The position numbers and the translations under genes are program-made. The notes below the pieces were generated by a model. That model made no database searches. It was not told the origin of the DNA and saw only the letters and a program-made list of their open reading frames with translations. A stretch of DNA of 64,000 nt from Dialister succinatiphilus YIT 11850 (lineage in GTDB: Bacteria > Bacillota > Negativicutes > Veillonellales > Dialisteraceae), in the NCBI RefSeq assembly GCF_000242435.1, contig NZ_JH591187.1:62001-126000 (forward strand), given 5' to 3'. Each line of letters starts with the position of its first letter. Position 1 is the stretch's first letter. Positions 8,837 to 57,600 of the stretch are shown one piece after another.

Positions 8837-8870
8837 GCAGGGGTGCATATCCGATGCATCCCTGCTTTTT
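8837..8870 (+). terminator. Terminator of ftsY
   Basis: GCAGGGGTGCAT/ATGCATCCCTGC stem with TTTTT. It separates ftsY from the metallopeptidase gene. Confidence 0.85.
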
Positions 8871-8925
8871 GAGTGCTGCCCCGGGGCGGGGAGAAGGACA
8901 AGAGGAAGGAGTCAGGGGAAAAGTG

Positions 8926-9621
8926 ATGAAAAAAAGGATGGAGGAAATGGAACCTTTCGCCTATGCTGTAACCATTACACGGAAAAGGGGACTCAGGGCT
9001 ATTTACCTTCGGATTTCCAGGACCGGGAGGGTTCTTGTATCAGCACCATCGGCCATGGCTTTAAAGGAAGTGGAACGTTTCGTGGCTTCAAAGGATGGAT
9101 GGATCCGGGAAAAGCTGGCCAAAATGCCTGCCGTCCCCTGCTATACCTATGACAGCGGCGAAAAACATTTCTTTCTGGGCAGGGAATACCCCATTGTTTA
9201 TGAACGAGGCCCCGTGAGCTCCGTGTCGGTAAGGGAGAGAAAACTCTGTCTTACGATAAGCCCACGGACGAAGGATCGGCCCCGGGCTTACAGGAATCTT
9301 ATGAAGGAAGAACTGCGGAAGGTTATAGAAACATATATAGAAATCTGGGCGCCCCGCATGGGCGTCCAGCCTTCTTCCCTGACCATTCGCATTCTAAAGA
9401 GCCGATGGGGCAGCTGCAATGTAAGGACCGGAGAGCTTTCCTTTGCCCTGGACCTCATCACCAAACCGGAGGCATGCATCGAGTCGGTGGTGGTGCACGA
9501 GCTGAACCATCTTCTGGAAACAGGTCATACCCGCCGTTTCCATGCCCTCATGGCCCGCTGGCTTCCGGACTATAAGGAAAGGACGAAGAAACTATACGAC
9601 TACCCCAGAGAGTTTATTTAA
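8926..9621 (+). CDS. YgjP-like zinc metallohydrolase (DUF45, M48-type)
   Basis: 231 residues from ATG 8926 (MKKRMEEM). An upstream in-frame ATG at 8854 lies within the ftsY terminator and has no ribosome site; AGGAAGGAG at about 8902 favours the internal start only loosely. The C-terminal half carries the family signature: LKSRWGSCN, then VVHELNHLLETGHTRRFHAL. The HELNH zinc-binding motif and downstream His/Glu match the YgjP/SprT-like group. Biological role is unknown; proteolysis or nucleotide/RNA-linked roles have been suggested for relatives. The product class is clear and the function open. Confidence 0.85.
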   Translation: MKKRMEEMEPFAYAVTITRKRGLRAIYLRISRTGRVLVSAPSAMALKEVERFVASKDGWIREKLAKMPAVPCYTYDSGEKHFFLGREYPIVYERGPVSSVSVRERKLCLTISPRTKDRPRAYRNLMKEELRKVIETYIEIWAPRMGVQPSSLTIRILKSRWGSCNVRTGELSFALDLITKPEACIESVVVHELNHLLETGHTRRFHALMARWLPDYKERTKKLYDYPREFI

Positions 9622-9699: not shown

Positions 9700-9990
9700 G
9701 GTCCTTTTCTAAAATCTGCGGCGTCAGCCGCCACCACATCCTCTGAACCTTTTGAACCTTTTGAACCTTCTGAACCCTGTGAACCCTCACGCCGTAGGCG
9801 TGTCCAATAGCAAAGCCGCCACCACAACCCTCGGCCCAAAGGGCCGTCAAACTTAAGAACCTTCCGGCCCCCTGGGCCGGTCCATCTTAAGAACCCTTTC
9901 CATGCCCCCTGAGCGAAGCGATGCACAACCCTTCTACACAACCTGCGGCGCCAGCCGCGCCCCTCTTTTTAACCTGCGGCCGGTCAATTG
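9700..9990 (+). repeat. Array of short variable-stem hairpins with 9-bp GAACCTTTT repeats
   Basis: This gap holds no gene. It contains TCTGCGGCGTCAGCCGCC, a run of GAACCTTTT units on a 9-base period (about 9745-9785), then ACGCC-GTA-GGCGT, GGCCC-AAA-GGGCC and other stems framed by AACCCTC and GTCAA. The same frame with different stem sequences recurs at 11955, 16555, 20012 (opposite strand), 36305, 47749 and 57480. Confidence 0.8.
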
Positions 9991-10114: not shown

Positions 10115-10981
10115 ATGAATAACACGGACTGGAAAATCCTTATCTATCTTCGTGAGGAACGAAGCATCAATAAGGTAGCAAAGCGGCTTTTCATGACTCA
10201 GCCGTCCTTAACCTATCGCCTGAGCCAGATGGAAAAGGAAATCGGCTGTCCTTTATTTATTCGTACCAATAAAGGGGTTCATTTCACCGATGCAGGCAAT
10301 CGCCTTTTCTCCTTTGCAGAAAAGGAGCTGCAGCAGTACCAGGACATGAAGAATTATGTGACCCATGAGCCTAATTCCATTTCCGGCGTACTCCGCATCG
10401 GTGCCAGCCAGTCCTTTGCCCAGTCCCATATGCCTGCCATCCTGAAGGGCTTTGTGGATAAGTACAGCGACATTGAAATTTCCCTGACCACCGATACCAG
10501 TGATGAACTGGTGAAGCTGGTAAAAAAAGAGGACATCCATCTGGCCATTGTCCGTGGGAACCAGGAATGGCCGGACGCCGATATTCTTCTGGAAGATGCG
10601 CCGCTGTACTTGATTTCCGCCAAGAAAATCGACTACAGCACGCTGCCGGACCAGCCTTCCATCCGCTACCGCAGCGATCCTTCCCTGGATGAGCTCCGTA
10701 CCCGGTGGTGGCGGCAGAATTTCACCGATTCTCCCCATTTCATGCTTACTGTGTCTGACTGCCTGACCTGCGTGGAAATCGTGAACCAGGGCCTTGGCCA
10801 CTCTCTGATTCCGGCGGACCTGCTTCCTAAGTGCGCGCCCCAGGTGAACAGGGAAATGATTTACGACAAGCAGAAGAGACCTCTTCTGCGGCCCAGCCAT
10901 CTGATTTTCAAACAGCCCATGCTCCAGTCCACACCGGTAAGAATCTTCGTGGATTACCTGCGCAGCTATTTCAAGGTATGA
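10115..10981 (+). CDS. LysR-family transcriptional regulator
   Basis: 288 residues. The N-terminal winged helix-turn-helix (RSINKVAKRLFMTQPSLTYRLSQMEKEIG, about 15-43) is followed by a periplasmic-binding-like effector domain beginning SGVLRIGASQSFAQ (about 90). It binds DNA as a tetramer and responds to a small ligand that cannot be read from sequence. The gene stands alone, flanked by a hairpin array and a bidirectional terminator shared with the convergent membrane-protein gene. AAGGGG precedes the ATG. No divergent target gene is present, so the regulon is unknown. Confidence 0.92.
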   Translation: MNNTDWKILIYLREERSINKVAKRLFMTQPSLTYRLSQMEKEIGCPLFIRTNKGVHFTDAGNRLFSFAEKELQQYQDMKNYVTHEPNSISGVLRIGASQSFAQSHMPAILKGFVDKYSDIEISLTTDTSDELVKLVKKEDIHLAIVRGNQEWPDADILLEDAPLYLISAKKIDYSTLPDQPSIRYRSDPSLDELRTRWWRQNFTDSPHFMLTVSDCLTCVEIVNQGLGHSLIPADLLPKCAPQVNREMIYDKQKRPLLRPSHLIFKQPMLQSTPVRIFVDYLRSYFKV

Positions 10982-11839: not shown

Positions 11840-12062
11840 CGAGATTCTTCGCCTGCGGCTTAGAATGACGAGTGGGAGGAGGTCAGTTTCAGCACGTAAC
11901 GCCCAGTCCCCTTTCTGTGGAAGGGGGCTCCGGATCTTCGTTATAGAGATATGGTTGACAAAAAACTAATTACGTAACGCTGACTTTGTAAGCATTGCCG
12001 CGAGGCGGCTATCCACCACCCTCTGAACCCTCTGAACCCTCTGAACCTTTTGAACCCTTATA
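11840..12062 (+). repeat. GATTCTTCG..AATGAC repeat and GAACCCTCT array
   Basis: GAGATTCTTCGCCTGCGGCTTAGAATGACGAG at 11841 is split here only for naming; it is the common inverted-end type also seen at 47612 and 54878. From 11970 CGTAACGCTGACTTTGTAAG leads into GCCGCGAGGCGGC and four GAACCCTCT-type 9-mers that run up to the ribosome site of the next gene. The gap from 11418 to 12078 has no other gene. Confidence 0.7.
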
Positions 12063-12078
12063 ACCAAAGGAGGTTTCC

Positions 12079-16554: not shown

Positions 16555-16750
16555 ACACCATCTGCGGCGCCAGCCGCGTCCCTTTTTTAAAATCTGCGGC
16601 GAAGCCGCCACCGCAACCCTCAGCGCCATAGGCGCTGTCGCCCCCTGAGCGAAGCGAACACAACCTGCCGCCATCGGGCGGCCATAACCCTCGGGACGAA
16701 GTCCCGTCAACCCTCACACCGAAGGCCGCCATCGCTACCCTTTGAACCTT
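16555..16750 (+). repeat. Array of variable-stem hairpins
   Basis: Successive stems GCGGCG-AA-GCCGC, AGCGCC-ATA-GGCGCT, CCGCC-ATC-GGGCGG and GGGAC-GAA-GTCCC are framed by AACCCTC and GTCAACCCTC. There is a GAACCTTT at the end. The array occupies the gap between the divergent serine operon and the dehydrogenase gene. Confidence 0.8.
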
Positions 16751-17910: not shown

Positions 17911-17994
17911 TTTTGTAAGTGCTATGCCCTTATGAAACATGGTTCACTGGTTTTCTTTCTGTTTTTCTCCTCAAATTTCTTGTTTCCCCTTGAG

Positions 17995-18065
17995 GGGAAA
18001 TGCCACGTAGTGGCAAAAGGGTGTACGGGGCTGAGCAGCAATGTGATACTCTATAGCTATCCTGA
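17995..18065 (-). repeat. 72-bp repeat, inverted relative to the copy at 35980
   Basis: GGGAAATGCCACGTAGTGGC, then AAAAGGGTGTACGGGGCTGA and GTGATACTCTATAGC. Its reverse complement matches 35980-36053 with about four differences. The gap from 17911 to 18285 has no gene; CGCCAATCGGCGG follows the repeat. Confidence 0.85.
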
Positions 18066-18285
18066 CCGCCAATCGGCGGCCTCCCTCGCCACCTCATGGT
18101 TCTCTCCCCCTTGCAAGCAGGTGGCACTCGTTTTAATAAATGCAGTTCTAAAGGTTTTTTCATAAGAGGGCGCCTTCTATAAATGTAGAGGCGCCCCAGT
18201 CCCCATTTATAGAGAAAATCCCTTTTCACAGCCCCGTCCCATGGGGTATAATGGTATGACGCTTATTTTAATTTTGAGGTGAAAC

Positions 18286-20011: not shown

Positions 20012-20200
20012 TTATGAGTGTGAAGGTTCAAGCGCCTTTCGACGCGGTCGGGATCGGGACCAGCGCGGTGCTTTCCAGTATTCCCGAAGGTTGACACGCT
20101 CTTACGGGCGTGAGGGTTGAGCCAGCCGTCGGGCCTTTGGCCCTGGGCTGCCAGGGTTCTGCCTGTGATCGGCTTCGCCTTACAGGCGGGCTCCATGCTC
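20012..20200 (-). repeat. Hairpin array in reverse orientation
   Basis: On the minus strand: GAACCCTGGCAGCCCAGGGCC, CAACCCTCACGCCCGTAAG followed by AGCGTGTCAACCTTCGGG. It is the only copy of the array type here on this strand. No gene lies between 19935 and 20640. Confidence 0.7.
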
Positions 20201-20224: not shown

Positions 20225-20311
20225 TGTGGAGGTCCTGCATAGGACCTCCAAGTCAGCCAAAGTAGGCCCTTAGCCTGTCCATAAAAGGGCCTACCTATTG
20301 GCTGGCTGACC
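20225..20311 (+). other. Multi-stem element with TGCATA loop, variant copy
   Basis: Hairpin GGAGGTCC-TGCATA-GGACCTCC (20228-20249), then GTCAGCC, GTAGGCCCTT-AGCCTGTCCATA-AAAGGGCCTAC and closing GGCTGAC. Compared with the copies at 41931, 47639 and 53062 the loops hold and both sides of the stems change together. Confidence 0.7.
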
Positions 20312-20645: not shown

Positions 20646-21515
20646 GACCTTCACACCGGACTTCCCCACGAAGAAGGTGGTGAAGAACACGGGGCAAGTC
20701 CCCAGCTACTTCGTGGAGCAGAGCCATCCCGCCATCATCGACCCTGTCACCTTCGAGATGGTGCAGTCGGAGGCAGCGCGGCGCAAGCGGGAGGGAGGCA
20801 GATACAGCGGCGTGAGCATTTTCTCCGGGAAAATCAAATGCGGCGAATGCGGCGGCTTCTTCGGAGCCAAGGTCTGGCATAGCACCGACAAGTACCGCAG
20901 GGTCATCTATCGTTGCAACAACAAGTACGACGGGCATAAATGCCAAACGCCCCATGGGTAATATGCCGGTGGCATATTACCGAGGAGGAAATCAAAGTAG
21001 CCGTCGTCACGGCCTTTAACAAGCTGGTGACGGAGCGGGCTGGCGCAAACGTCGCATCACGCTCCTGCGCCAGCACTAGCGCATCCTGCGCGTCGGAGGA
21101 GATTGCTGCCAACGCCCGGCTCGTCCGGCAGACGCTCTGCGATACTGCGGAGTTGGAGCGGGAGAAAGCCTCCTTGGGGCAGGAGCTTGCGGTGCTGGTG
21201 GAGATGACCCAGAACTGCATCGCCGAGAATGCAAGGATTGCCCAAGATCAGGGCGAGTACCAAAAACGCTACAACGGCTTGGTGGAGCGGTACGAGAAAG
21301 CCAAGGCACGGTTTGACGAGGTGATGGAGGCCATCGCAGAGCGGTCAGCCAAGGGCGAGAGTCTGGCGGGGTTCATCAGGACACTTGAGGCGCAGACCGA
21401 GCCTGTGGCAGAGTTCGATGAGCGGCTCTGGGGTACGATGGTGGATTATGTGACGGTGGGCGTGGACGGCGGCATGACGGTGGTGTTCCGCGATGGGACG
21501 GATATACTGGTTTGA
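20641..21515 (+). pseudogene. Large serine recombinase remnant (5' truncated, frameshifted)
   Basis: The reading starts abruptly at KKTFTPDFPTKK in the recombinase domain, so the catalytic resolvase domain and about half the protein are missing. Zinc-ribbon text KIKCGECGGFFGAKVWHS is followed by CQTPH. A 24-base segment containing TAATATGCC-GGT-GGCATATTA (about 20958-20981) then breaks the frame, and coding continues as EEEIKVAVV with the coiled-coil tail to ...FRDGTDILV. It aligns along its length with the remnant at 28303-29490. It is not functional as it stands, and marks the left side of the accessory island. Confidence 0.85.
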
Positions 21516-28333: not shown

Positions 28334-29490
28334 TTTGCGGTAAAGGGGAACTCCTCATCACCATCATGAGCAGCCTGGCACAGGAAGAGAACCGGAGAAT
28401 TTCGGAAAACGTCACCTGGGGCCATCGGAAGCGATTCGCTGACGGGAAGGTGTGTGTGCCGTTCGGCCATTTCCTTGGCTATGACCGGGGACCGGACGGG
28501 AATCTGGTCGTCAACCGGGAACAGGCCAAGACGGTGAAACTGATTTACCGCTTGTTCCTGGACGGGTATACCTTCCACTCCATTGCCAGGGAGCTGACTT
28601 CCAGAGGGCTGGAAACTCCGGCAAGAAAGAAACGCTGGTATCCGGGGACGGTAGAGAGCATCCTGACAAATGAGAAATACAAGGGCGATGCCCTGCTGCA
28701 GAAGCGGTTCACCGTCAACTTCCTGACCAAAGAAACGAAAGCGAATGAAGGGGAAGTGCCGCAGTACTATGTGGAAAATAACCACGAAGCCATCATCAGC
28801 CCGCAGGTCTTCGACTGGGTACAGGAAGAAATCAAGCGGCGGCGTGAAGGCAGGGGACGTTACAGCGGCGTATCCATCTTCTCCAGCAAAATCAAGTGCG
28901 GCCAGTGCGGAGGCTGGTACGGGGCCAAGGTCTGGCATTCGACCGACAAGTACCGCAGAACCATCTACCGATGCAACGATAAGTTCAAGAGCCATTGCAA
29001 GACACCACATCTGACAGAGGATGATATCAAGGAAGCCTTCGTCCGGGCCGTCAATCAGCTCATCGAAAACAAAGCGGACGTACTTGACAGCATCACACTG
29101 CTGAAGGAACGGCTCACTGACACAGAAGACTTGGAAGAGGAGCGGGACAGGATAAGCACAGATTTGAACCTGCTGGCCGACAAGATACAGCAGCTCATAG
29201 CCGAGAACGCCAGGGTCGCGCAGAACCAGGATGATTATGACCGGAACTACAACGAACTGGTCAGTCGGTATGAAGCAGCGAAGACGCAGTACGACAAGAC
29301 CTGTGAAGCCATCCAGTATCGCAAGGCCCGGAGCCGTCAGATGGACAGCTTCATCAAGGAGCTTAGGAATCAGGATCTCATTAAGGAGTTCGATGCCCGG
29401 CTGTGGGGCAGCCTGGTGGATTTCATCACAGTGTACAGCAAAGACGATATCCGGGTGACCTTCAAGGACGGGACGGAAATCAGAGCATAA
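28303..29490 (+). pseudogene. Large serine recombinase lacking its catalytic domain
   Basis: The open reading runs 395 residues from TTG 28303, but homology starts at about GELLITIMSSLAQEE, the end of the resolvase domain. The N-terminal catalytic serine region of about 120 residues is missing and upstream sequence is unrelated junction DNA. The recombinase domain (GHRKRFADGKVCVPFG, FHSIARELTSRGLETP), zinc ribbon KIKCGQCGGWYGAKVW, and coiled-coil tail are intact to FKDGTEIRA. It cannot recombine on its own. A terminator at 29506 follows. Confidence 0.85.
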
Positions 29491-30821: not shown

Positions 30822-31676
30822 TCAGCAGATGGGCGTGTGACGTTCCCGATACTGCTTCGGCGTCAGGTAGCCTAAGGAATAGGCTGGCCTCTGTTCATTG
30901 AAGAAAAGAATGTAGTCATCCACCTCCTCCTTGACCGGTTTCTCGCCGGTCACATGCAAGTCCATGAACAGCTTCGCCTTGATCCATCCATTGATGGACT
31001 CCATAGCGGCATTGTCTGTGGGGGTCCCGGCACGTGACATGGATCGGGTGATGCCGTACATGGGCAATAGCTCGTTGTAGGCTTTGGAGGCGTAGACCGA
31101 TCCCTGGTCAGAATGGAGAACCATTTGGTGCTCCGGATGCCGTTTTTGCCACTCAATCAGATTTTCCAGTCCGCTGATGTAAGTCATGCGATCACCGCGT
31201 TTTGCAGAGAGGGAATGACTGACAATCTCATTGTTCCATAGATCCATATAAAGAGTCAGTTCATGGTAGATGCCTTTCACATAAAAAGCGGTCATATCAC
31301 TCACGATGCACTGCATTGGCCCATCGATCTGCATTTCAGACATGAGCAGGTTGGGAAATATCCGCGCTGGATCGCCAGCCTTCTTGTACCTGTAGTGCTT
31401 GGATTTGCTCTTGATTCCCGCAATCCTACAGCATTTGTGGGCATAGGGATCGGACAGGACAATCTCTTTGTCCAACCGTATCTTGGCGTTCAGCCAGCGA
31501 TAGCCGTGCGATGGATACTTCCAATGGTACTCCTGGAACAGCAGGACGTTGCTCAAAAGGCGCTTTTCTTTGCCCGACGGCTGAGAAAGATGTTTTTTCC
31601 AAGCGTAGAAACTGCTCCTCTGGATGCCCATTGTCTTGCAAAGAAGCTTCACCGGAATTTCTCCGGATAGTTCCAT
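30822..31676 (-). CDS. IS3-family transposase OrfB (DDE integrase core)
   Basis: 284 residues. HTH_21-like start (GIQRSSFYAWKKHLSQP), then an rve DDE domain: DGPMQCIVSDMTAFYV (first Asp), VLHSDQGSVYAS (second Asp) and AAMESINGWIKAKLF (Glu). The ATG lies two bases after the orfA stop (TAATCATG), so expression by termination-reinitiation is possible. No A6G slippery heptamer is seen near the junction, and the usual programmed -1 frameshift is not evident. Complete and apparently active. Confidence 0.92.
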   Translation of the reverse strand: MELSGEIPVKLLCKTMGIQRSSFYAWKKHLSQPSGKEKRLLSNVLLFQEYHWKYPSHGYRWLNAKIRLDKEIVLSDPYAHKCCRIAGIKSKSKHYRYKKAGDPARIFPNLLMSEMQIDGPMQCIVSDMTAFYVKGIYHELTLYMDLWNNEIVSHSLSAKRGDRMTYISGLENLIEWQKRHPEHQMVLHSDQGSVYASKAYNELLPMYGITRSMSRAGTPTDNAAMESINGWIKAKLFMDLHVTGEKPVKEEVDDYILFFNEQRPAYSLGYLTPKQYRERHTPIC

Positions 31677-31678
31677 GA

Positions 31679-32029
31679 TTACTTGATAATCTTGTTGCCG
31701 TACAGAATTACAGTACCATCCCCCTTCACCTCGTAGCCTTTTTTTAGCCGTGCCTCGGTTATCTTGGCCTTGATTAGTTCCTGGATAAGTTCTTCCTTTG
31801 TCATCGCCTTCAGTTCATCCAGCTCTGCCGGAGCTTTCTTGAACGAGGGCGCACAGATGCTTCTTCGTCCCTGCTTGGGCGGCAACTGGTTGGCATCCCG
31901 GTACATTCTCATGTAATTCCGTGCCGTCTGCTCATTGATAACGTATTCCTCTGCAGCTTCATACCGGCTGATTTCGCCGTCGTAAATGCGGCGGCCAATG
32001 TCCAATCTCTGTTCTTTTGTGTACTTCAC
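31679..32029 (-). CDS. IS3-family transposase OrfA
   Basis: 116 residues. An N-terminal helix-turn-helix (YDGEISRYEAAEEYVINEQTARNYMRMYRD) is followed by a linker and a C-terminal helical segment (LDELKAMTKEELIQELIKAKITEARLKKGYEV), as usual for the DNA-binding subunit that joins OrfB to recognise the IS ends. AGGAGG before the ATG. Confidence 0.88.
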   Translation of the reverse strand: MKYTKEQRLDIGRRIYDGEISRYEAAEEYVINEQTARNYMRMYRDANQLPPKQGRRSICAPSFKKAPAELDELKAMTKEELIQELIKAKITEARLKKGYEVKGDGTVILYGNKIIK

Positions 32030-35946: not shown

Positions 35947-35979
35947 CTAATTTACACAAAGAATTTTACACTCTCGGCA

Positions 35980-36053
35980 GTCGGGATAGCGATAGAGTAT
36001 CACATCGCTGCTCAGCCCCGTACACCCTTTTGCCACTACGTGGCATTTCACCC
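35980..36053 (+). repeat. 72-bp repeat, partner of 17995-18065
   Basis: GTCGGGATAGCGATAGAG...GTACACCCTTTTGCCACTAC, GTGGCATTTC. Inverse of the copy at 18.0 kb. The two lie just outside the accessory block. Confidence 0.85.
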
Positions 36054-36062
36054 ATAGGGAAG

Positions 36063-36140
36063 CGTGTCACTGGATTCGCGGGTCGCTTCTCTCCCCTATG
36101 AATCCAGTTCCCTTGCCACCCTCGCTTCGCGGGAGCACTA
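36063..36140 (+). repeat. ACTGGATT..AATCCAGT repeat module
   Basis: GTGTCACTGGATTCGCGGGT...ATGAATCCAGTTCCCTTGCC, followed by CTCGCTTCGCGGGAG. Same module as 20456 and 55011. Confidence 0.65.
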
Positions 36141-36304
36141 TAACCCGTGCTTACTGTAGAGCCGCTTATGAAGCGAGGCTTCGAGGTGTTTTATTGTCCC
36201 ACCGCTTCGCGGGGGGAAGGTGGTGCCGTAAGGCACCAAAGGGGGGAAAGCCACCGAAGGTGGCTGATCACCATAATGCTTATTTTGCCATATGACACTG
36301 AAAG

Positions 36305-36450
36305 CCAATCCCGTAACGCTGACTTTATAAGCATTGCCGCAGAGCGGCAATCCGCAACCCTCGGCTCGAAGGGCCGTCAAACTTAAGAACCTTTAGAACC
36401 CTCGGGCCGTAGGCCCGTCAACCTTCACACTGCAGGCCTGTCCTTCTATC
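36305..36450 (+). repeat. Array of variable-stem hairpins
   Basis: CGTAACGCTGACTTTATAAG, then TGCCGCAGAGCGGCA, GGCTC-GAA-GGGCC and GGGCC-GTA-GGCCC framed by AACCCTC and GTCAAAC/GTCAACC. The gap 35950-36518 has no gene. A TATAAT at 36484 begins the promoter of the next gene. Confidence 0.75.
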
Positions 36451-41760: not shown

Positions 41761-42120
41761 AAAAGGCTGTGAAGAAATGCGTATCCATTTCTCACAGCCT
41801 TTTTTATGACTTTTTTCGGGGAACCTGTCTGCCCATGGGTCATCTCTGGCGGAGGCAGGGGCCGGCAGGGATGGTAAAGTTTCCTGCTCCATGCTCACTG
41901 TACCATAGGGGCGTGAGATTTCTCCACTCTGTGGAGACTCTGCATAGAGTTTCCAAGTCAGCCGAAGTTGGCCTCTAGCCTGCACAATAAGAGGCTTTCC
42001 TATTGGCGGCTGACCGGCTACGGTCGAAATGACGAGGGGGGTGACGTCCCTGTCATTTGAGGAATGAGATTTCTCCACTCCTCTCCGCTTTCGTCGAAAT
42101 GACGAGGGCGGGGGCGGCGG
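41761..42120 (+). repeat. Composite dispersed repeat: terminator-type hairpin plus GTCATCTC element
   Basis: AAAAGGCTGTGAAGAAATG/CATTTCTCACAGCCTTTTT, then GTCATCTCTGGCGGAGGCAG, GGATGGTAAAG, CTCACTGTACCATAGG, GTGAGATTTCTCCACT and GTCGAAATGACGAGG. The copy at 52857-53215 has the same order. The gap 41751-42583 contains this, a second shorter GTCATCTC copy at 42170-42300, and nothing coding that I can support. Confidence 0.8.
41931..42015 (+). other. Multi-stem element with TGCATA loop
   Basis: GGAGACTC-TGCATA-GAGTTTCC, then GTCAGCC, GTTGGCCTCT-AGCCTGCACAATA-AGAGGCTTTC, closing GGCTGACC. Nearly identical to 53062; stems differ from 20225 and 47639 in a paired way. Confidence 0.7.
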
Positions 42121-47311: not shown

Positions 47312-47398
47312 AAGAAATCATCAACGCCCCGTCCGGCCCAGTGCCCTGGAGCGCAGCGAGCCGGAAGGGGTCGGCTGCCGCTGGATTTCTTAGTGAAC

Positions 47399-47563
47399 TA
47401 GGGAAGCACTGATTAATTCATAGAGTTTGCTTTTATAAGAATTTTCATGCACTGCTTCGTCATGAGGCTCCTTAAATAGCTCGCTATTCGCGTCGCCTCA
47501 TTCCTTGCATTGCATAAAAATTCAAGAATAAAAGCAAACAACGATTTAATCAGCGCTTCCCTA
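47399..47563. mobile_element. MITE-like 165-bp palindromic element, copy 1
   Basis: TAGGGAAGCACTGATTAA ... TTTAATCAGCGCTTCCCTA with internal pairs TTTGCTTTTAT/ATAAAAGCAAA and ATGAGGC/GCCTCAT. No coding capacity. Flanked by TA, as expected for IS630/Tc1-type transposition. The second copy at 54683 carries paired changes. Confidence 0.75.
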
Positions 47564-47638
47564 ATGAGCTGGTGGACTAGTGGGCTGGTCGGAGTTAATG
47601 TCAGGGTGCACCAAGATTCTTTGCCCGGGGTTAGAATG

Positions 47639-47729
47639 GTCGGTCGGCCAAATAAAAGGAAGGCCCTTTAATGTGCAGGCTAAGGGAGGGCTTTGGACGA
47701 CTCGCGCATTCTATGCAGAATGCGCGCAA
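47639..47729 (-). other. TGCATA-loop element, reverse orientation, divergent stems
   Basis: On the minus strand CGCGCATTC-TGCATA-GAATGCGCG (47726-47703), then TTAGCCTGCACATTAAAGGG and GGCCGACC. Loops match the other copies, stem 1 is entirely different yet fully paired. Confidence 0.65.
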
Positions 47730-47748
47730 GTGGGGGCAGGAAGGAAAG

Positions 47749-47870
47749 TACGTAACGCTGACTTCATACTCATCGCCCGATAGGGCGATACCACCACCCT
47801 CAGCGGCGAAGCCGCTGTCAAACCTAAGAACCCTTGGGCCCGAAGGGCCCATCAATCTTAAGAACCTTTT
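47749..47870 (+). repeat. Array of variable-stem hairpins
   Basis: CGTAACGCTGACTTCATACT, then ATCGCCC-GATA-GGGCGAT, AGCGGC-GAA-GCCGCT and GGGCCC-GAA-GGGCCC, framed by AACCCTC-like and GTCAA text, ending about 50 bases before the rpsU promoter. Confidence 0.8.
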
Positions 47871-47917
47871 GCGTCCAAAGGGTGCTGCCGGGAATTTCTA
47901 TTTCCGTAAAAAATAAA

Positions 47918-48818: not shown

Positions 48819-50714
48819 ATGAACAAAGAATTATTGTACTGCATTCCGGCCGGCCAATACGGTAAAGAAGGGGTTCTTTCCCTGCTGGCACAGCACCCGG
48901 AAATCCGGTTCGTGTCTCTCGTAGGCATTGACCTGGCAGGCAATGATACCGATGAAAAGATCCCCATCGAGATTTTTATGAAAGACTACGAAGACTTCTT
49001 CGCCGGCAAGGCTGTGCAGACCGATGGTTCTTCCGTAGTATTCATGAATATCGCTACTCTGAACGATGCACGGGTAGACATGGTGGCCGACAGCACGGTC
49101 AACTGGTATGTGGATTATAATGATGATAATGTGATGGAAGAAAACGGACGTCCCGTAGGCACCCTGCGGATTCCCTGCTTCCTCATCCATAACGGAAAAT
49201 TTATCGATTCCCGCTCCATTCTGAAAAACTCCTGCGAATATGTGGCCAGAGAACTGAAGAAAATGCTCCTCGGCGCCACTGTGAAGGGCATGGAAAACTT
49301 CCCCTTCTCTGAAATCCAGGATATCGTATTTACCACCGGCACGGAACTTGAATTCTGGGTGAAAACCCCCAGCGAAAAGGAAACGGTACAGCACCTGTCC
49401 ATTTCCCAGCGCCTCCAGGAACAGTACTGGCAGCGCATGCGCGGCAACGTCCGTACCGCCATGGAACAGACCATCGAAGAACTGGATGCCCGGGGCCTCC
49501 ATGTAGAAATGGGCCATAAAGAAGTAGGCGGCATCAAATCCAAAATCGATGACGACGGCCATATCTTTGATGTATGCGAACAGCTGGAACTGGACTGGCT
49601 CTTTTCCACCAATCCCCTGCAGGCAGCAGATAATGAACTGGAAGCCCGCATCGTGGTACGGGAAGTCTTCCGCCGCAACGGTCTGGACGTATCCTTCAAG
49701 GCAAAGCCCATTATCGGCGTAGCCGGCAGCGGCGAACATACCCATGTAGGCATTGCGGCCCTCCTGAAAAACGGTAAAACCATCAATTTGCTGGCACCGG
49801 AAGACATGTCTTCCGATTTCCTCTCCACCATTGGCTATGGCTTCATCATGGGCATTCTCCACAACTACGAAGCCACCAATCCCTTCGTTTCTTCCACCAC
49901 CGACGCCTTCAACCGCCTGAAACCGGGCTTTGAAGCACCGGTATGTATCGTCACCTCTCTGGGCCATACGCCGGAAGTACCGTCCCGCAACCGTTCCATC
50001 CTCATGGGACTGATCCGGGATATCGGAAATCCGAAAGCCACCCGCTTCGAACTCCGTGCGCCGAACCCCTTTACCAATACCTACCTCTGCGTTTCCTGCC
50101 TCTACCTCACTGCCTTAGACGGCATCGAATATGCCTTGAAATCCGGCAAATCGGCAGCAGACCTTCTGGCTGAACTTTCCAAGAAGCCCGGCGAAGACGC
50201 AGACTACCTGGAAAAAGACAGAGCCTACCGCTGCGAAGAAAACGTATTCGAAGACTTCACCGACGAAGAAAGAGATGCAGCCTTCGGCAAACCACCTGCC
50301 ACGGTTTGGGAAAACGTGAAAATCATGAAAGCCAACCCGGACAAGGTGGCAGTCCTCACCAGAGGCGGCACCCTTTCCGAAAAGATAGTAGACTCCTTCC
50401 TCGCTTCCATCGTATACCGCTGGAAGAACGAACTCATCGACCGGATTATCCCCGGTGTGGAAGCTGCCGTGAGAGGCTATAAAAAACTGGATAATGATGA
50501 CAAGATTGATGAAAGACGCTGGAAATCCATCAAAGCCAAACGGGTGGAACTGGCAAAAGATCTGGACGATGAAAAATGCATCTGCACCAGGCTGAAAGAA
50601 GCCCTGGAAAAAGACGACTACGACACCGCCTCGGACCTCCAGCTGGAAATGATGAAAAAAGCCCAGGCCCTGGAAAAGGAATACCGCGTGTATGCCCTGA
50701 ACATTCTCGACTGA
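48819..50714 (+). CDS. Large glutamine synthetase, first copy
   Basis: 631 residues. Catalytic beta-grasp and barrel motifs: GTELEFWVKTP, VEMGHKEVGGIKSKID, KAKPIIGVAGSGEHTHVGI, NPFVSSTTDAFNRLKPGFEAP, RFELRAPNPFTNTYL. These bear the metal glutamates, ATP- and glutamate-binding residues. It is longer than type I enzymes (about 450), with a C-terminal helical extension of about 130 residues ending EKEYRVYALNILD, as in the clostridial-type forms. It makes glutamine from glutamate and ammonia. AGGAGGG precedes the ATG. The close paralogue lies 234 bases downstream. Confidence 0.92.
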   Translation: MNKELLYCIPAGQYGKEGVLSLLAQHPEIRFVSLVGIDLAGNDTDEKIPIEIFMKDYEDFFAGKAVQTDGSSVVFMNIATLNDARVDMVADSTVNWYVDYNDDNVMEENGRPVGTLRIPCFLIHNGKFIDSRSILKNSCEYVARELKKMLLGATVKGMENFPFSEIQDIVFTTGTELEFWVKTPSEKETVQHLSISQRLQEQYWQRMRGNVRTAMEQTIEELDARGLHVEMGHKEVGGIKSKIDDDGHIFDVCEQLELDWLFSTNPLQAADNELEARIVVREVFRRNGLDVSFKAKPIIGVAGSGEHTHVGIAALLKNGKTINLLAPEDMSSDFLSTIGYGFIMGILHNYEATNPFVSSTTDAFNRLKPGFEAPVCIVTSLGHTPEVPSRNRSILMGLIRDIGNPKATRFELRAPNPFTNTYLCVSCLYLTALDGIEYALKSGKSAADLLAELSKKPGEDADYLEKDRAYRCEENVFEDFTDEERDAAFGKPPATVWENVKIMKANPDKVAVLTRGGTLSEKIVDSFLASIVYRWKNELIDRIIPGVEAAVRGYKKLDNDDKIDERRWKSIKAKRVELAKDLDDEKCICTRLKEALEKDDYDTASDLQLEMMKKAQALEKEYRVYALNILD

Positions 50715-50948: not shown

Positions 50949-52844
50949 ATGAACAAGGACTTACTTTACTACATCCCCACCGGTGAATTTGGCAAGGAAG
51001 GCGTACTTTCCCTTCTGAAAACCCATCCGGAAATCCGCTTCGTATCCCTGGTAGGCATTGACCTGGCAGGCAACGATACCGATGAAAAGGTACCGATTGA
51101 ACTGTTCCTCAAGAACTACGACGACTTCTTCGCCGGCACCGCCGTACAGACCGACGGCTCCTCCGTAGTACTCATGAACATCGCCACCCTGAACGATGCT
51201 AGGGTCGACATGGTAGCAGATCCCTCCGTCAACTGGTATATCGACTACAATGAAGACAACATCTATGAAAACGGCCGCCCTGTAGGCACTCTCCGCATTC
51301 CCTGCTTCCTCCTGCACAACGGCAAATTCATCGACTCCCGCTCCATTCTGAAAGACTCCTGTGCCTTCGTGGCAGATAAACTGAAAGGACTTTTGGCCGG
51401 CGGCAAAAAAGTCAAAGGCATGGAAGACGTTCCCTTCGAAGACATTGAAGACATCGAATTCACCATCGGCACGGAACTGGAATTCTGGGTCAAGACCCCC
51501 AGCGAAAAAGAAACCATTCAGCACCTCTCCATTTCCCAGCGCCTCCAGGAACAGTACTGGCAGCGCATGCGCGGCAACGTCCGTACCGCTATGGAAGAAG
51601 CCATTGAAGAACTGGATGCCCGCGGCATGAGCGTGGAAATGGGCCATAAAGAAGTGGGTGGCATTAAACCGAAAGTGGACGACGCCGGCCACACTGTGGA
51701 CGTCTGCGAACAGCTGGAACTGGACTGGAGATTTTCCATGAACCCCCTGCAGGCTGCAGACAATGAACTGGAAGCCCGCATCATTATCCGTGAAGTATTC
51801 CGCAAATACGGCCTCGACGTATCCTTCAAGGCAAAGCCCATTATCGGCGTAGCCGGCAGCGGCGAACACACCCATGTAGGCATCTGCGCCACCTTGAAAA
51901 ACGGCAAAACCATCAACCTCCTGGCACCTACAGAAATGAAAGCCGACTTTCTTTCCACCATCGGCTACGGCTTCATCATGGGCATCCTGAAGAACTACGA
52001 AGCCACCAACCCCTTCGTATCCTCCACCACCGACGCCTTCAACCGTCTGAAACCGGGCTTTGAAGCACCGGTCTGCATCGTCACCTCCCTGGGCCACAAA
52101 CCGGAAGTTCCGTCCCGTAACAGAACCATCCTCATCGGCCTGGTAAGAGACATTGACAATCCGAAAGCCACCAGATTCGAACTCCGCGCTCCAAACCCCT
52201 TCACCAACACCTACCTGGCAGCCTCCTGCCTCTTCCTCTCTGCCCTTGACGGCATCACCTACGCTGTCACCTCCGGCAAGACACCGGCAGACCTTCTGGC
52301 CGAACTCTCCAAGAAACCGGGAGAAAAAGCAGACTACCTGGAAGAAGGAAGAGCCTATCGCTGCGAAGACAACGTATTCGAAGACTTCACCCAGGAAGAA
52401 AGAGATGCAGCCTTCGGTAAACCGCCGGCTACTGTCTGGGAAAACGTGAAGACCATGAAAGCCAACCCCGACAAAGTGGCAGTCATTGAAGCAGGCGGCA
52501 CACTCAATGCCACCATCGTAGACTCCTTCGTAGCCTCCATCGTATACCGCTGGAAGAACGAACTTATCGACCGCATCATCCCGGCCACCGAAGCCCTGGT
52601 CAAAGGCTTCAAAAAACTCTCCAGCGAAGACGACCTGGACGAAGAACGGTGGGCTGATATCCTTGATAAGAAATACGAACTCATCAAAGACACCAAAGCC
52701 GGCAAATCCCTCTGCACTAAGCTGAAAGACGCTCTGGAAGCCGATGACTACGACACCGCCTCCGACCTGCAGATCGAAATCAATAAGAAAGCTGAAGCCC
52801 TCGAAAAAGAATACGGCGAATACGCCCTGAACATCGTAGGCTGA
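50949..52844 (+). CDS. Large glutamine synthetase, second copy
   Basis: 631 residues, collinear with the first copy without large gaps and most positions identical. All catalytic motifs are present (GTELEFWVKTP, VEMGHKEVGGIKPKVD, GSGEHTHVGI, RFELRAPNPFTNTYL). Differences cluster at the N-terminal 12 residues, the VKG-E region (about 155-175) and the C-terminal extension (SSEDDLDEERWADILDKKYELI). AGGAGG 8 bases before the ATG. The codons are visibly more biased to C-ending synonymous forms than in the first copy, suggesting this is the strongly expressed gene. The functional division between the copies is unknown. Confidence 0.92.
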   Translation: MNKDLLYYIPTGEFGKEGVLSLLKTHPEIRFVSLVGIDLAGNDTDEKVPIELFLKNYDDFFAGTAVQTDGSSVVLMNIATLNDARVDMVADPSVNWYIDYNEDNIYENGRPVGTLRIPCFLLHNGKFIDSRSILKDSCAFVADKLKGLLAGGKKVKGMEDVPFEDIEDIEFTIGTELEFWVKTPSEKETIQHLSISQRLQEQYWQRMRGNVRTAMEEAIEELDARGMSVEMGHKEVGGIKPKVDDAGHTVDVCEQLELDWRFSMNPLQAADNELEARIIIREVFRKYGLDVSFKAKPIIGVAGSGEHTHVGICATLKNGKTINLLAPTEMKADFLSTIGYGFIMGILKNYEATNPFVSSTTDAFNRLKPGFEAPVCIVTSLGHKPEVPSRNRTILIGLVRDIDNPKATRFELRAPNPFTNTYLAASCLFLSALDGITYAVTSGKTPADLLAELSKKPGEKADYLEEGRAYRCEDNVFEDFTQEERDAAFGKPPATVWENVKTMKANPDKVAVIEAGGTLNATIVDSFVASIVYRWKNELIDRIIPATEALVKGFKKLSSEDDLDEERWADILDKKYELIKDTKAGKSLCTKLKDALEADDYDTASDLQIEINKKAEALEKEYGEYALNIVG

Positions 52845-52914: not shown

Positions 52915-53215
52915 TGACATGCAGCCTGCTGCTATCGTCATCTCGAGCGGGGGAACGTGCCGGTATGGATGGTAAAGCCCCTGGGGCTATGGAAACGCAG
53001 AGCCGAGAGATCTCCTGCCCCCATGTCCTGTGTACCATCAGGGAGTGAGATTTCTCCACTCTGTGGAGACTCTGCATAGAGTTTCCAAGTCAGCCGAAGT
53101 TGGCCTCTAGCCTGCACAATAAGAGGCTTTCCTATTGGCGGCTGACCGGCTGCGGTCGAAATGACGAGGCGGGGGGACGTTTTGTCATTTGAGGAGTGAG
53201 ATTTTTCCACTTTGC
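52915..53215 (+). repeat. GTCATCTC composite repeat
   Basis: TATCGTCATCTCGAGCGGGG, GGATGGTAAAG, AGCCGAGAGATCTCCTGCC, GTGAGATTTCTCCACT and GTCGAAATGACGAGG in the same order as 41838-42120. Outer ends TCGTCATCTCG and CGAAATGACGA are inverted. The gap from 52905 to 53411 has no gene. Confidence 0.8.
53062..53147 (+). other. Multi-stem element with TGCATA loop
   Basis: Essentially identical to 41931-42015 and embedded at the same place in the GTCATCTC composite repeat. Confidence 0.7.
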
Positions 53216-54682: not shown

Positions 54683-54847
54683 TAGGGAAGCACTGATTAA
54701 TTCATAGAGTCTGCTTTTATAAGAATTTTTATGCACTGCTTCGTCATGGGACTCCTTAAATAGCTCGCTATTCGCGTCGTCCCATTCCTTGCATTGCATA
54801 AAAATCCAAGAATAAAAGCAGACAGTGATTTAATCAGCGCTTCCTTA
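54683..54847. mobile_element. MITE-like 165-bp palindromic element, copy 2
   Basis: TAGGGAAGCACTGATTAA ... TTTAATCAGCGCTTCCTTA. Versus copy 1, both arms change together: GTTTGCTTTTA/TAAAAGCAAAC becomes GTCTGCTTTTA/TAAAAGCAGAC, and ATGAGGC/GCCTCAT becomes ATGGGAC/GTCCCAT. Confidence 0.75.
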
Positions 54848-54929
54848 ACGGCATTTGTCTCATATGCTTCAACTACTGAGATTCTTTGCTGGCGCTCAGG
54901 ATGACAAGTGTGAGGCAGGAAGGATAGCA

Positions 54930-55235
54930 CGTAACGCTGATTATAAAACTCATCGCCCCCTAAAGGGGAAACGACTCACTACATTTTGCGCGTCGCTAGC
55001 GCTCCTTCACCCACTGCTGTCACTGACTCACTGGATTTTCAGGTCGCTGATGCTCCCTTACAAATCCAGTTCGCATAGTGCATCCACTGCTGTCACTGAC
55101 TCACTGGATTTTCAGGTCGCTGATGCTCCCTTACAAATCCAGTTCGCATAGTGCAAAATGTGTTCGCTGTGCACCGTAAGGGCGATACCACAACCTTATG
55201 AACCATCTGAATCCGGGCCGCAAAGCGGCCCAAAG
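54930..55235 (+). repeat. Hairpin array interrupted by a nested insertion
   Basis: CACGTAACGCTGATTATAAA followed by CATCGCCC starts the array as at 47749, but its partner GGGCGATACCACAACC appears only at 55180. The DNA between holds ends ACATTTTGC (54981) and GCAAAATGT (55153) and a 73-bp tandem duplication. A last stem GGGCCGC-AAA-GCGGCCC ends at the pepC ribosome site. Confidence 0.75.
55011..55154 (+). repeat. 73-bp direct tandem duplication
   Basis: Two copies, starting CCACTGCTGTCACTGACTCA at 55011 and 55084, each containing ACTGGATT...AATCCAGT, identical by eye over the shared length. Confidence 0.9.
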
Positions 55236-57419: not shown

Positions 57420-57600
57420 GTCGCCTGCGGCGCTACTGTCGGGCATTAAGGTGCTCGCTTACTGTGCAGGCTATATATTTCGGCGAAGCCGACACCACCC
57501 TCTGAATCTTTTGAAACCTATGAACCCTATGAACCTTCACCCCGAAGGCGTGTCCAAGGGCGCAGCCCCGTCAACGTACATCCTTTCCCGCTGCTCGGGA
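57420..57600 (+). repeat. Hairpin array and GAACC 9-mers
   Basis: CGTCGCCTGCGGCGCT, ATTTCGGCGAAGCCGAC, a run of GAATCTTTT/GAAACCTAT/GAACCCTAT 9-mers, then CACCCCGAAGGCGTG and GGGC-GCA-GCCC-GTCAAC. The gap 57204-57743 has no supported gene; a TATAAT-like box (ATGATATAAT) at 57688 begins the next transcript. Confidence 0.7.

Follow-up and report, generated by a model that had tools for sequence, protein, structure and literature searches.

In a 64,000-nucleotide stretch of the 2.496-Mb draft genome of Dialister succinatiphilus YIT 11850 (G000; positions C1:62,001-126,000, referred to below as the window), an array of short hairpins is flanked by two genes recognized by Pfam, one YgjP-like (8854-9621) and one for a LysR regulator (10115-10981). 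With repeats called at a self-comparison depth of ≥8, the array reaches a depth of up to 157, and the orthologous gap in G006, a genome of the same genus, is without it. As in the other arrays of the window, only the right-hand part of a longer, truncated element has been kept. The following features were located, in window coordinates:

9711-9980, forward strand: array at the locus itself, the outward-facing right end of a truncated element
9744-9781, forward strand: 9-bp direct repeats (GAACCTTTT/GAACCCT) joining hairpin slots, read directly
9782-9806, forward strand: unit AACCCT-CACGCC-GTA-GGCGTG-TCCA in an outermost-type slot (single-stranded DNA fold, -6.6 kcal/mol; z, -4.3)
9826-9850, forward strand: unit AACCCT-CGGCCC-AAA-GGGCCG-TCAA in slot H2 (unit scan; single-stranded DNA fold)
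9858-9884, forward strand: unit AACCTT-CCGGCCC-CCT-GGGCCGG-TCCA in slot H3 (slot analysis)
11958-12065, forward strand: truncated right end with module M2 (CGTAACGCTGACTT at 11973), containing no complete frame units (repeat depth; module scan)
16555-16726, forward strand: right-end array located in the gap that separates two divergent genes, for an aminotransferase and a lactate/malate dehydrogenase (Pfam); its units are near 16615 and at 16686-16710
17976-18196, no strand assigned: interior-module fragments (repeat depth, 18-32)
19942-20553, reverse strand: second element type (GCAG module, ...AACCCTCACGCCCGTAAGAGCGTGTCAACCTTCGGGAATAC...), oriented against replication, with an ATGC-loop hairpin (TGGAGGTCCT) near 20240
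35976-36445, forward strand: half element with interior modules, M2 at 36312 and right-end units at 36356-36380 and 36397-36421
41930-42111, no strand assigned: interior-module fragments (repeat depth)
47398-47564, no strand assigned: interior-module fragments (repeat depth)
47641-47882, forward strand: ATGC-loop hairpin (CGCGCATTCT) at about 47712, M2 at 47751 and right-end units at about 47795-47821 and 47829-47855; rpsU and yqeY follow downstream (Pfam; S21 start read directly)
53062-53148, no strand assigned: interior-module fragment (repeat depth)
54683-55195, no strand assigned: interior-module fragments (repeat depth)
57532-57556, forward strand: right-end unit remnant AACCTT-CACCCC-GAA-GGCGTG-TCCA with one mismatched pair

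An earlier note on this DNA had described ten such sites by the formula AACCCTC-stem-GWA-stem-GTCAA. A hairpin of this kind is indeed found at all ten, but several depart from the formula: the loops at 9826 and 16615 are AAA and ATA, TCGCC follows the unit at 16615, the unit at 47795 starts with CACCCTC, one position is unpaired in each of the units at 36356 and 57532 and in the reverse unit at 20091-20118, and the units at 9782 and 57532 end in TCCA, not TCAA. The 9-bp runs that the note saw joined to the units are present as well, in the form of the GAACCTTTT direct repeats.

The window holds other duplicated sequences. An IS3-like transposase gene pair (30822-32029) recurs on L059 (1763-2970), and two related proteins (20677-20961 and 28366-29490) resemble, by eye, fragments of a large serine recombinase, which suggests a degraded integrated element. 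Two tandem duplicate genes of 631 amino acids each (48819-50714 and 50949-52844) are >60% identical; both copies occur in G003 and G006, and the G006 ortholog of the first is 98% identical.

Paired stems and composite architecture

The genome-wide motif search proposed in the note found the strict frame AACCCTC-N4-8-GWA-N4-8-GTCAA at 204 places, with none for the reversed-pattern control. Relaxed units (AACCYT-stem-loop-stem-TCMA) were counted in 813 kb of G000, out of about 0.96 Mb of stretches analyzed besides the genome searches; since most sampled stretches were picked for richness in matches, densities in the sample exceed the genome average. This count yielded 480 units (9 in the reversed sequence), only 6 of which overlap predicted genes; they carry 32 distinct 5' arms, and 410 are free of any non-Watson-Crick pair. 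When pairing was not demanded of the strict frames, 91 of 102 were still perfect, 11 lacked one pair and none was worse, and of 571 units 485 were perfectly paired, a number that dropped to a mean of 91 once the 3' arms were re-dealt among units. Together, these two results bear out the claim that the pair is conserved and the sequence is not; the family does not consist of decayed, unpaired copies, the outcome that would have spoken against this claim. Pair statistics were computed directly on the units, since stems of different length misalign under MAFFT and RNAalifold on that alignment found slots H2 and H3 only in part and H1 not at all.

Those three slots make up the right end, in a fixed frame. 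The stems are mostly ATCGCCC, ATTGCCC, GCGGC or ATTGCCGC in H1 and mostly CGGCCC, CGGCCT or CGGGGCC in H2, with CCGGCC, CCGGCCC, TGGGCC or TGGGCCC in H3. As many as 47 distinct H1-H2-H3 combinations occur among 77 right ends, and the association between slots is weak but significant (chi-square P, 0.0006 to 0.03). The slots are thus not fully independent, and both whole-element copying and slot exchange contribute. The 9-bp direct repeats differ in number. Another slot, located elsewhere in the elements, consists of an ATGC loop closed by a 10-bp stem. About 40 copies of it, from four Dialister genomes, carry about eight stem alleles (including TGCACATCCT, TGGAGGTCCT, TGGAGACTCT, TGCGCATTCT and TGCGTATCCC) and are almost all perfectly paired, in a scan that required at least seven perfect pairs beside the loop and would miss worse copies.

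The loop is GNA, GNNA or AWA in 337 perfect units and of the complementary classes in 2. C-GNA-G loops form very stable DNA mini-hairpins. Units with a single nonstandard transition pair are divided evenly between G-U and A-C (23:23 in G000 and 9:7 in G006), whereas selection on the RNA of one strand would favor wobble. From this we infer that it is as DNA that the hairpins are preserved, whether through selection on the hairpin of one strand, template-switch correction or both.

In every gap with units on both strands (61 of 61), the left-hand array runs inverted and the right-hand one forward, which identifies the arrays as the outward-facing ends of longer elements. These are noncoding composites of about 0.5 to 1 kb, with AACCYT-stem-loop-stem-TCMA hairpins at both ends, the left and right arrays carrying different stem sets. 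Between the arrays lie the modules M1 (GTTTGTATAAAACC), M0 (TTTATTCTGCCCCCG), AGCG (GGCGAGCGCAGCGAGCC), SNAP (GACACTGAAAG) and M2, whose order, compared pair by pair, was the same in 657 of 658 cases (gaps with single copies); distant loci share up to 93% identity over 300 bp. The repeats total 70.9 kb in the sample, with 99.3% of repeat bases being intergenic, and they take up a large share of the intergenic space there. The hairpins are, then, terminal parts of composite elements and not free-standing 5' untranslated region (UTR) modules. We hold this description of the hairpin repeats with high confidence.

Orientation and distribution

The internal modules point in the direction of replication in 77 of 80 gaps, and they still do so in all 11 gaps where both flanking genes are opposed to it. 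Two of the three exceptions are neighboring gaps (near C1:258-266 kb) on L047 (C1:256-276 kb), possibly reflecting a recent local inversion. Counted by module, copies with and against replication number 96:2 for M2, 29:0 for M1, 17:0 for M2b and 44:4 for AGCG. The GCAG element type (CCTTCGGGAATAC), further copies of which were seen on L110 (11513-11869 and 19305-19663), has the opposite polarity (2:43).

Exact M2 is present at 134 places in the genome, and 97 of the 100 listed copies fit the direction of replication. On C1, the listed copies are forward in 29 of 31 cases at 74-609 kb, reverse in 25 of 25 at 767-1,209 kb and forward in 3 of 3 from 1,217 kb onward; on C2 (0-331 kb), 40 of 41 are forward. 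The gene dnaA (C1:1,213,204) lies within the 8-kb interval (1,209-1,217 kb) in which the sign of M2 flips, and the second flip coincides with a change of sign in gene strand and GC skew, at 660-680 kb in the samples, which was taken as the terminus; the position of the terminus and the direction of replication on C2 to C4 were derived from GC skew. In the C4 sample, genes are +5/-13, GC skew is positive and markers are +14/-1. On G006 contigs, orientation matches the gene majority 33:5, a weaker check with few markers on most contigs.

Among 380 genomes of the class, true units were found only in G000 (204), G006 (83) and G003 (2), and scattered single matches in other genomes look chance-like, those inspected being unpaired. 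The family is abundant only in G000 and Dialister sp. UBA1703, the only named genome with an exact match to the commonest unit; many of the matches in the UBA1703 draft are close to contig ends. G000 and G006 contain element DNA, and G003 and G007 contain fragments of it; the other 57 genomes of the order have none. Runs of the hexamer GGGATC adjoin elements in both species (L047, 13893-14159; L125, 4461-5499). A search of the literature found nothing on such repeats in Dialister or in Negativicutes.

At orthologous sites, G003 is without a 0.78-kb element at the corresponding gene pair, and G006 is without two elements in a gap of 1.98 kb and a further one in a gap of 0.92 kb. A comparison of L049 with L129 showed the right half of one element to be common to two species, with different slots; the left part is missing in G006 at the L049 locus, where the flank is conserved up to the canonical left boundary of the element. 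These differences indicate that gain, loss and module exchange all occur. The difference between orthologous gaps usually amounts to several modules, so that recombination may also have added or deleted material, and no precise single-step insertion was caught at the sites compared. Inspection by eye of the flanks of about 150 array ends, the exact boundaries of which are uncertain, revealed no evident target duplication.

Known repeat systems and a possible route of spread

In their working, the repeats appear similar to the BIMEs and REP sequences of Enterobacteriaceae and Pseudomonas, which are likewise high-copy, intergenic, palindromic and arranged in mosaic clusters with inverted units: here too, intergenic clusters of palindromic units alternate in orientation and include other conserved modules. 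They differ in the use of many stems, perfect and interchangeable, where the others have a single conserved palindrome, in forming composites with a fixed module order and a near-total replication polarity, and in the lack of a RAYT transposase and of a GTAG tag, the frame also being different from the REP Y and Z families. The units do resemble REPs and REPINs as high-copy extragenic palindromes of 20 to 40 nucleotides. However, the rule for REPs is an unpaired GTAG or CGTC tag beside the stem (PMC3733652), whereas the flanks here are AACCYT and TCMA. The CGTC-tagged REPs, among them Neisseria dRS3 and Rickettsia RPE, have no dedicated transposase and often end in CCA (PMC3733652). The Dialister units are similar to them in being tagged short palindromes with no dedicated transposase and with tails that are often CCA, but their constant flanks are AACCYT and TCMA, their stems vary freely and CGTC arises only if a stem ends in CG.

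MITEs and the elements RU-1 and RU-2 are also noncoding, with inverted ends, and present or absent between relatives; the ends described here are instead hairpin arrays with different left and right stem sets, not one terminal inverted repeat, with neither a target duplication seen nor a matching transposase known. Integron attC sites likewise keep structure while sequence varies, and in other bacteria group IIC introns target the attC hairpin, but no R'/R'' core motifs were recognized in the Dialister repeats and no gene cassettes accompany them. Finally, the single-stranded DNA elements of the IS200/IS605 family share subterminal hairpins at both ends, a link to the lagging strand and an orientation bias; they leave no target duplication, and none was evident in the flanks scanned here. 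Unlike these, the Dialister elements have several hairpins per end and no guide tetranucleotide that we identified, and the genome contains no Y1 HuH transposase: Y1_Tnp (PF01797) gave no hit in G000, G003, G004, G005 or G006 and was positive in five control genomes. G007, a genome with only family fragments, has two Y1_Tnp loci (L130 and L131), and no repeat modules lie within the fetched stretches. A search for IS91-type Y2 enzymes was silent even in its controls and so carries no weight. Few multicopy proteins are encoded in the 0.96 Mb (one IS3-like pair and one recombinase pair), and the element ends were not matched to either.

On balance, we lean toward the reading that these are BIME-like mosaic repeats spread by a replication-coupled route, probably through single-stranded DNA, mainly because their orientation tracks the fork rather than transcription and because the coupling of IS200/IS605 transposition to lagging-strand single-stranded DNA is established (PMC6006769). 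Copies would spread, or would have done so until recently, through single-stranded DNA at the replication fork, a route expected to lock orientation to replication and to leave no target duplication. Given the absence of a Y1 transposase, the mobilizing activity would act in trans or have been lost. Stem alleles would then be swapped among copies by recombination, with perfect stems kept at the DNA level by selection on the single-stranded hairpin, template-switch correction or both. We speculate, much more tentatively, that this is a transposase-less family of hairpin arrays that copies itself through the fork, its orientation recording fork direction, and that a candidate non-Y1 activity reads the shape of the hairpin and tolerates any change of stem sequence that preserves pairing and loop polarity.

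Alternative explanations

The main rival, which we consider improbable, holds that the elements are not mobile but are mosaics grown in place by slippage, recombination and template switching, with perfect stems as a by-product of quasipalindrome correction and polarity as the outcome of a mutational asymmetry between leading and lagging strands. Template switching is able to create and maintain hairpins (PMC8794818), and it would suit stems whose arms change together, with few intermediates and no wobble preference, as it would the variable number of 9-bp repeats and the different slot contents of sister species at the same locus. Nevertheless, the near-invariant module order and the near-identical stretches at distant loci need dispersal of copies, empty orthologous sites exist, and inversion of the loop, a named footprint of template switching, is nearly absent (the two complementary-class loops against 337).

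It is unlikely that the elements constitute a polar signal of chromosome organization, read by a DNA-tracking or nucleoid protein that fixes their orientation in a manner analogous to KOPS or AIMS. The near-absolute polarity and the flip at dnaA would be expected of such a signal, but the distribution is patchy, with no elements in the 20-kb samples from C1 0-40, 300-320, 500-520, 640-700 and 980-1040 kb and no steady gradient from origin to terminus, and the absence or rarity of the family in other Dialister genomes would be odd for an essential organizer.

A resident group II intron offers a further candidate. Three copies (L132, C1:476 kb; L133, C1:548 kb; L134, C4:47.7 kb), 99.8 to 99.9% identical, match the Rfam group II models and encode a 469-amino-acid reverse transcriptase, and all three lie inside repeats, directly 3' of the hairpins CCGGC/GCCGG, GCCAC/GTGGC and CCCGC/GCGGG. 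This placement resembles the targeting of terminator and attC hairpins by group IIC introns, which insert after them and which strands at the fork can prime (PMC4424553). The suggestion that the hairpins are targets of a structure-reading protein is thereby borne out to the extent that they are a landing site for this intron, with three different stems being used; it says nothing of where the hairpins came from. That the reverse transcriptase itself drove a SINE-like spread of the repeats seems very unlikely to us: the repeats did not match a group II ribozyme, one of the three copies of the intron runs against replication, and the enzyme was not found in the repeat-rich G006 assembly, an absence made uncertain by a draft that breaks at repeats.

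Highly improbable, too, is the reading of the arrays as 5' UTR modules or other RNA regulatory elements, one of those put forward in the note. It had described the units as often ending where the ribosome site of the following gene lies, which does not hold as a general rule. Right-end slots would indeed fold as RNA, and 20 of the 93 array ends that face a gene start lie within 45 nucleotides of it (20 to 45 nucleotides before the start codon); the median distance, however, is 133 nucleotides, gene ends are faced as often as gene starts (91 and 93), and the orientation of the elements is independent of gene strand. A sigma-70-like promoter was found between array and start codon in 46 of the 93 cases (14.8 expected from shuffles), with none inside the arrays, and 22 of the 91 array ends that face gene ends are separated from the stop codon by a terminator (1.0 expected). 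With promoters and terminators outside the arrays, the majority of elements appear to be located between transcription units, and the missing G-U preference among single-pair defects argues against RNA-level selection as the main force. An Rfam search of the window at the gathering threshold returned only three tRNAs and no match for the arrays; a permissive search of three array-rich loci added two glycine riboswitch aptamers above the gathering score (L060, 13634-13737 and 9238-9337), the remaining matches being subthreshold and chance-like.

Classical REP or REPIN repeats moved by a RAYT are no more probable: the note's view of transposase-mobilized REP-like units stands insofar as the repeats are high-copy, clustered, dispersed, intergenic, short palindromes present or absent between relatives, and falls with regard to the RAYT, given the lack of Y1_Tnp in both repeat-rich genomes, stems that are not conserved in sequence and the missing GTAG tag.

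If the polarity of the elements does reflect insertion, they would preserve the direction of the fork as a natural record and provide a strong example of spread coupled to replication without a recognizable Y1 enzyme, in which a structure-reading activity would await discovery. Selection on single-stranded DNA hairpins can be tested directly against template-switch correction in this family, which has swappable, near-perfect stems, a loop polarity of 337 to 2 and no wobble preference.
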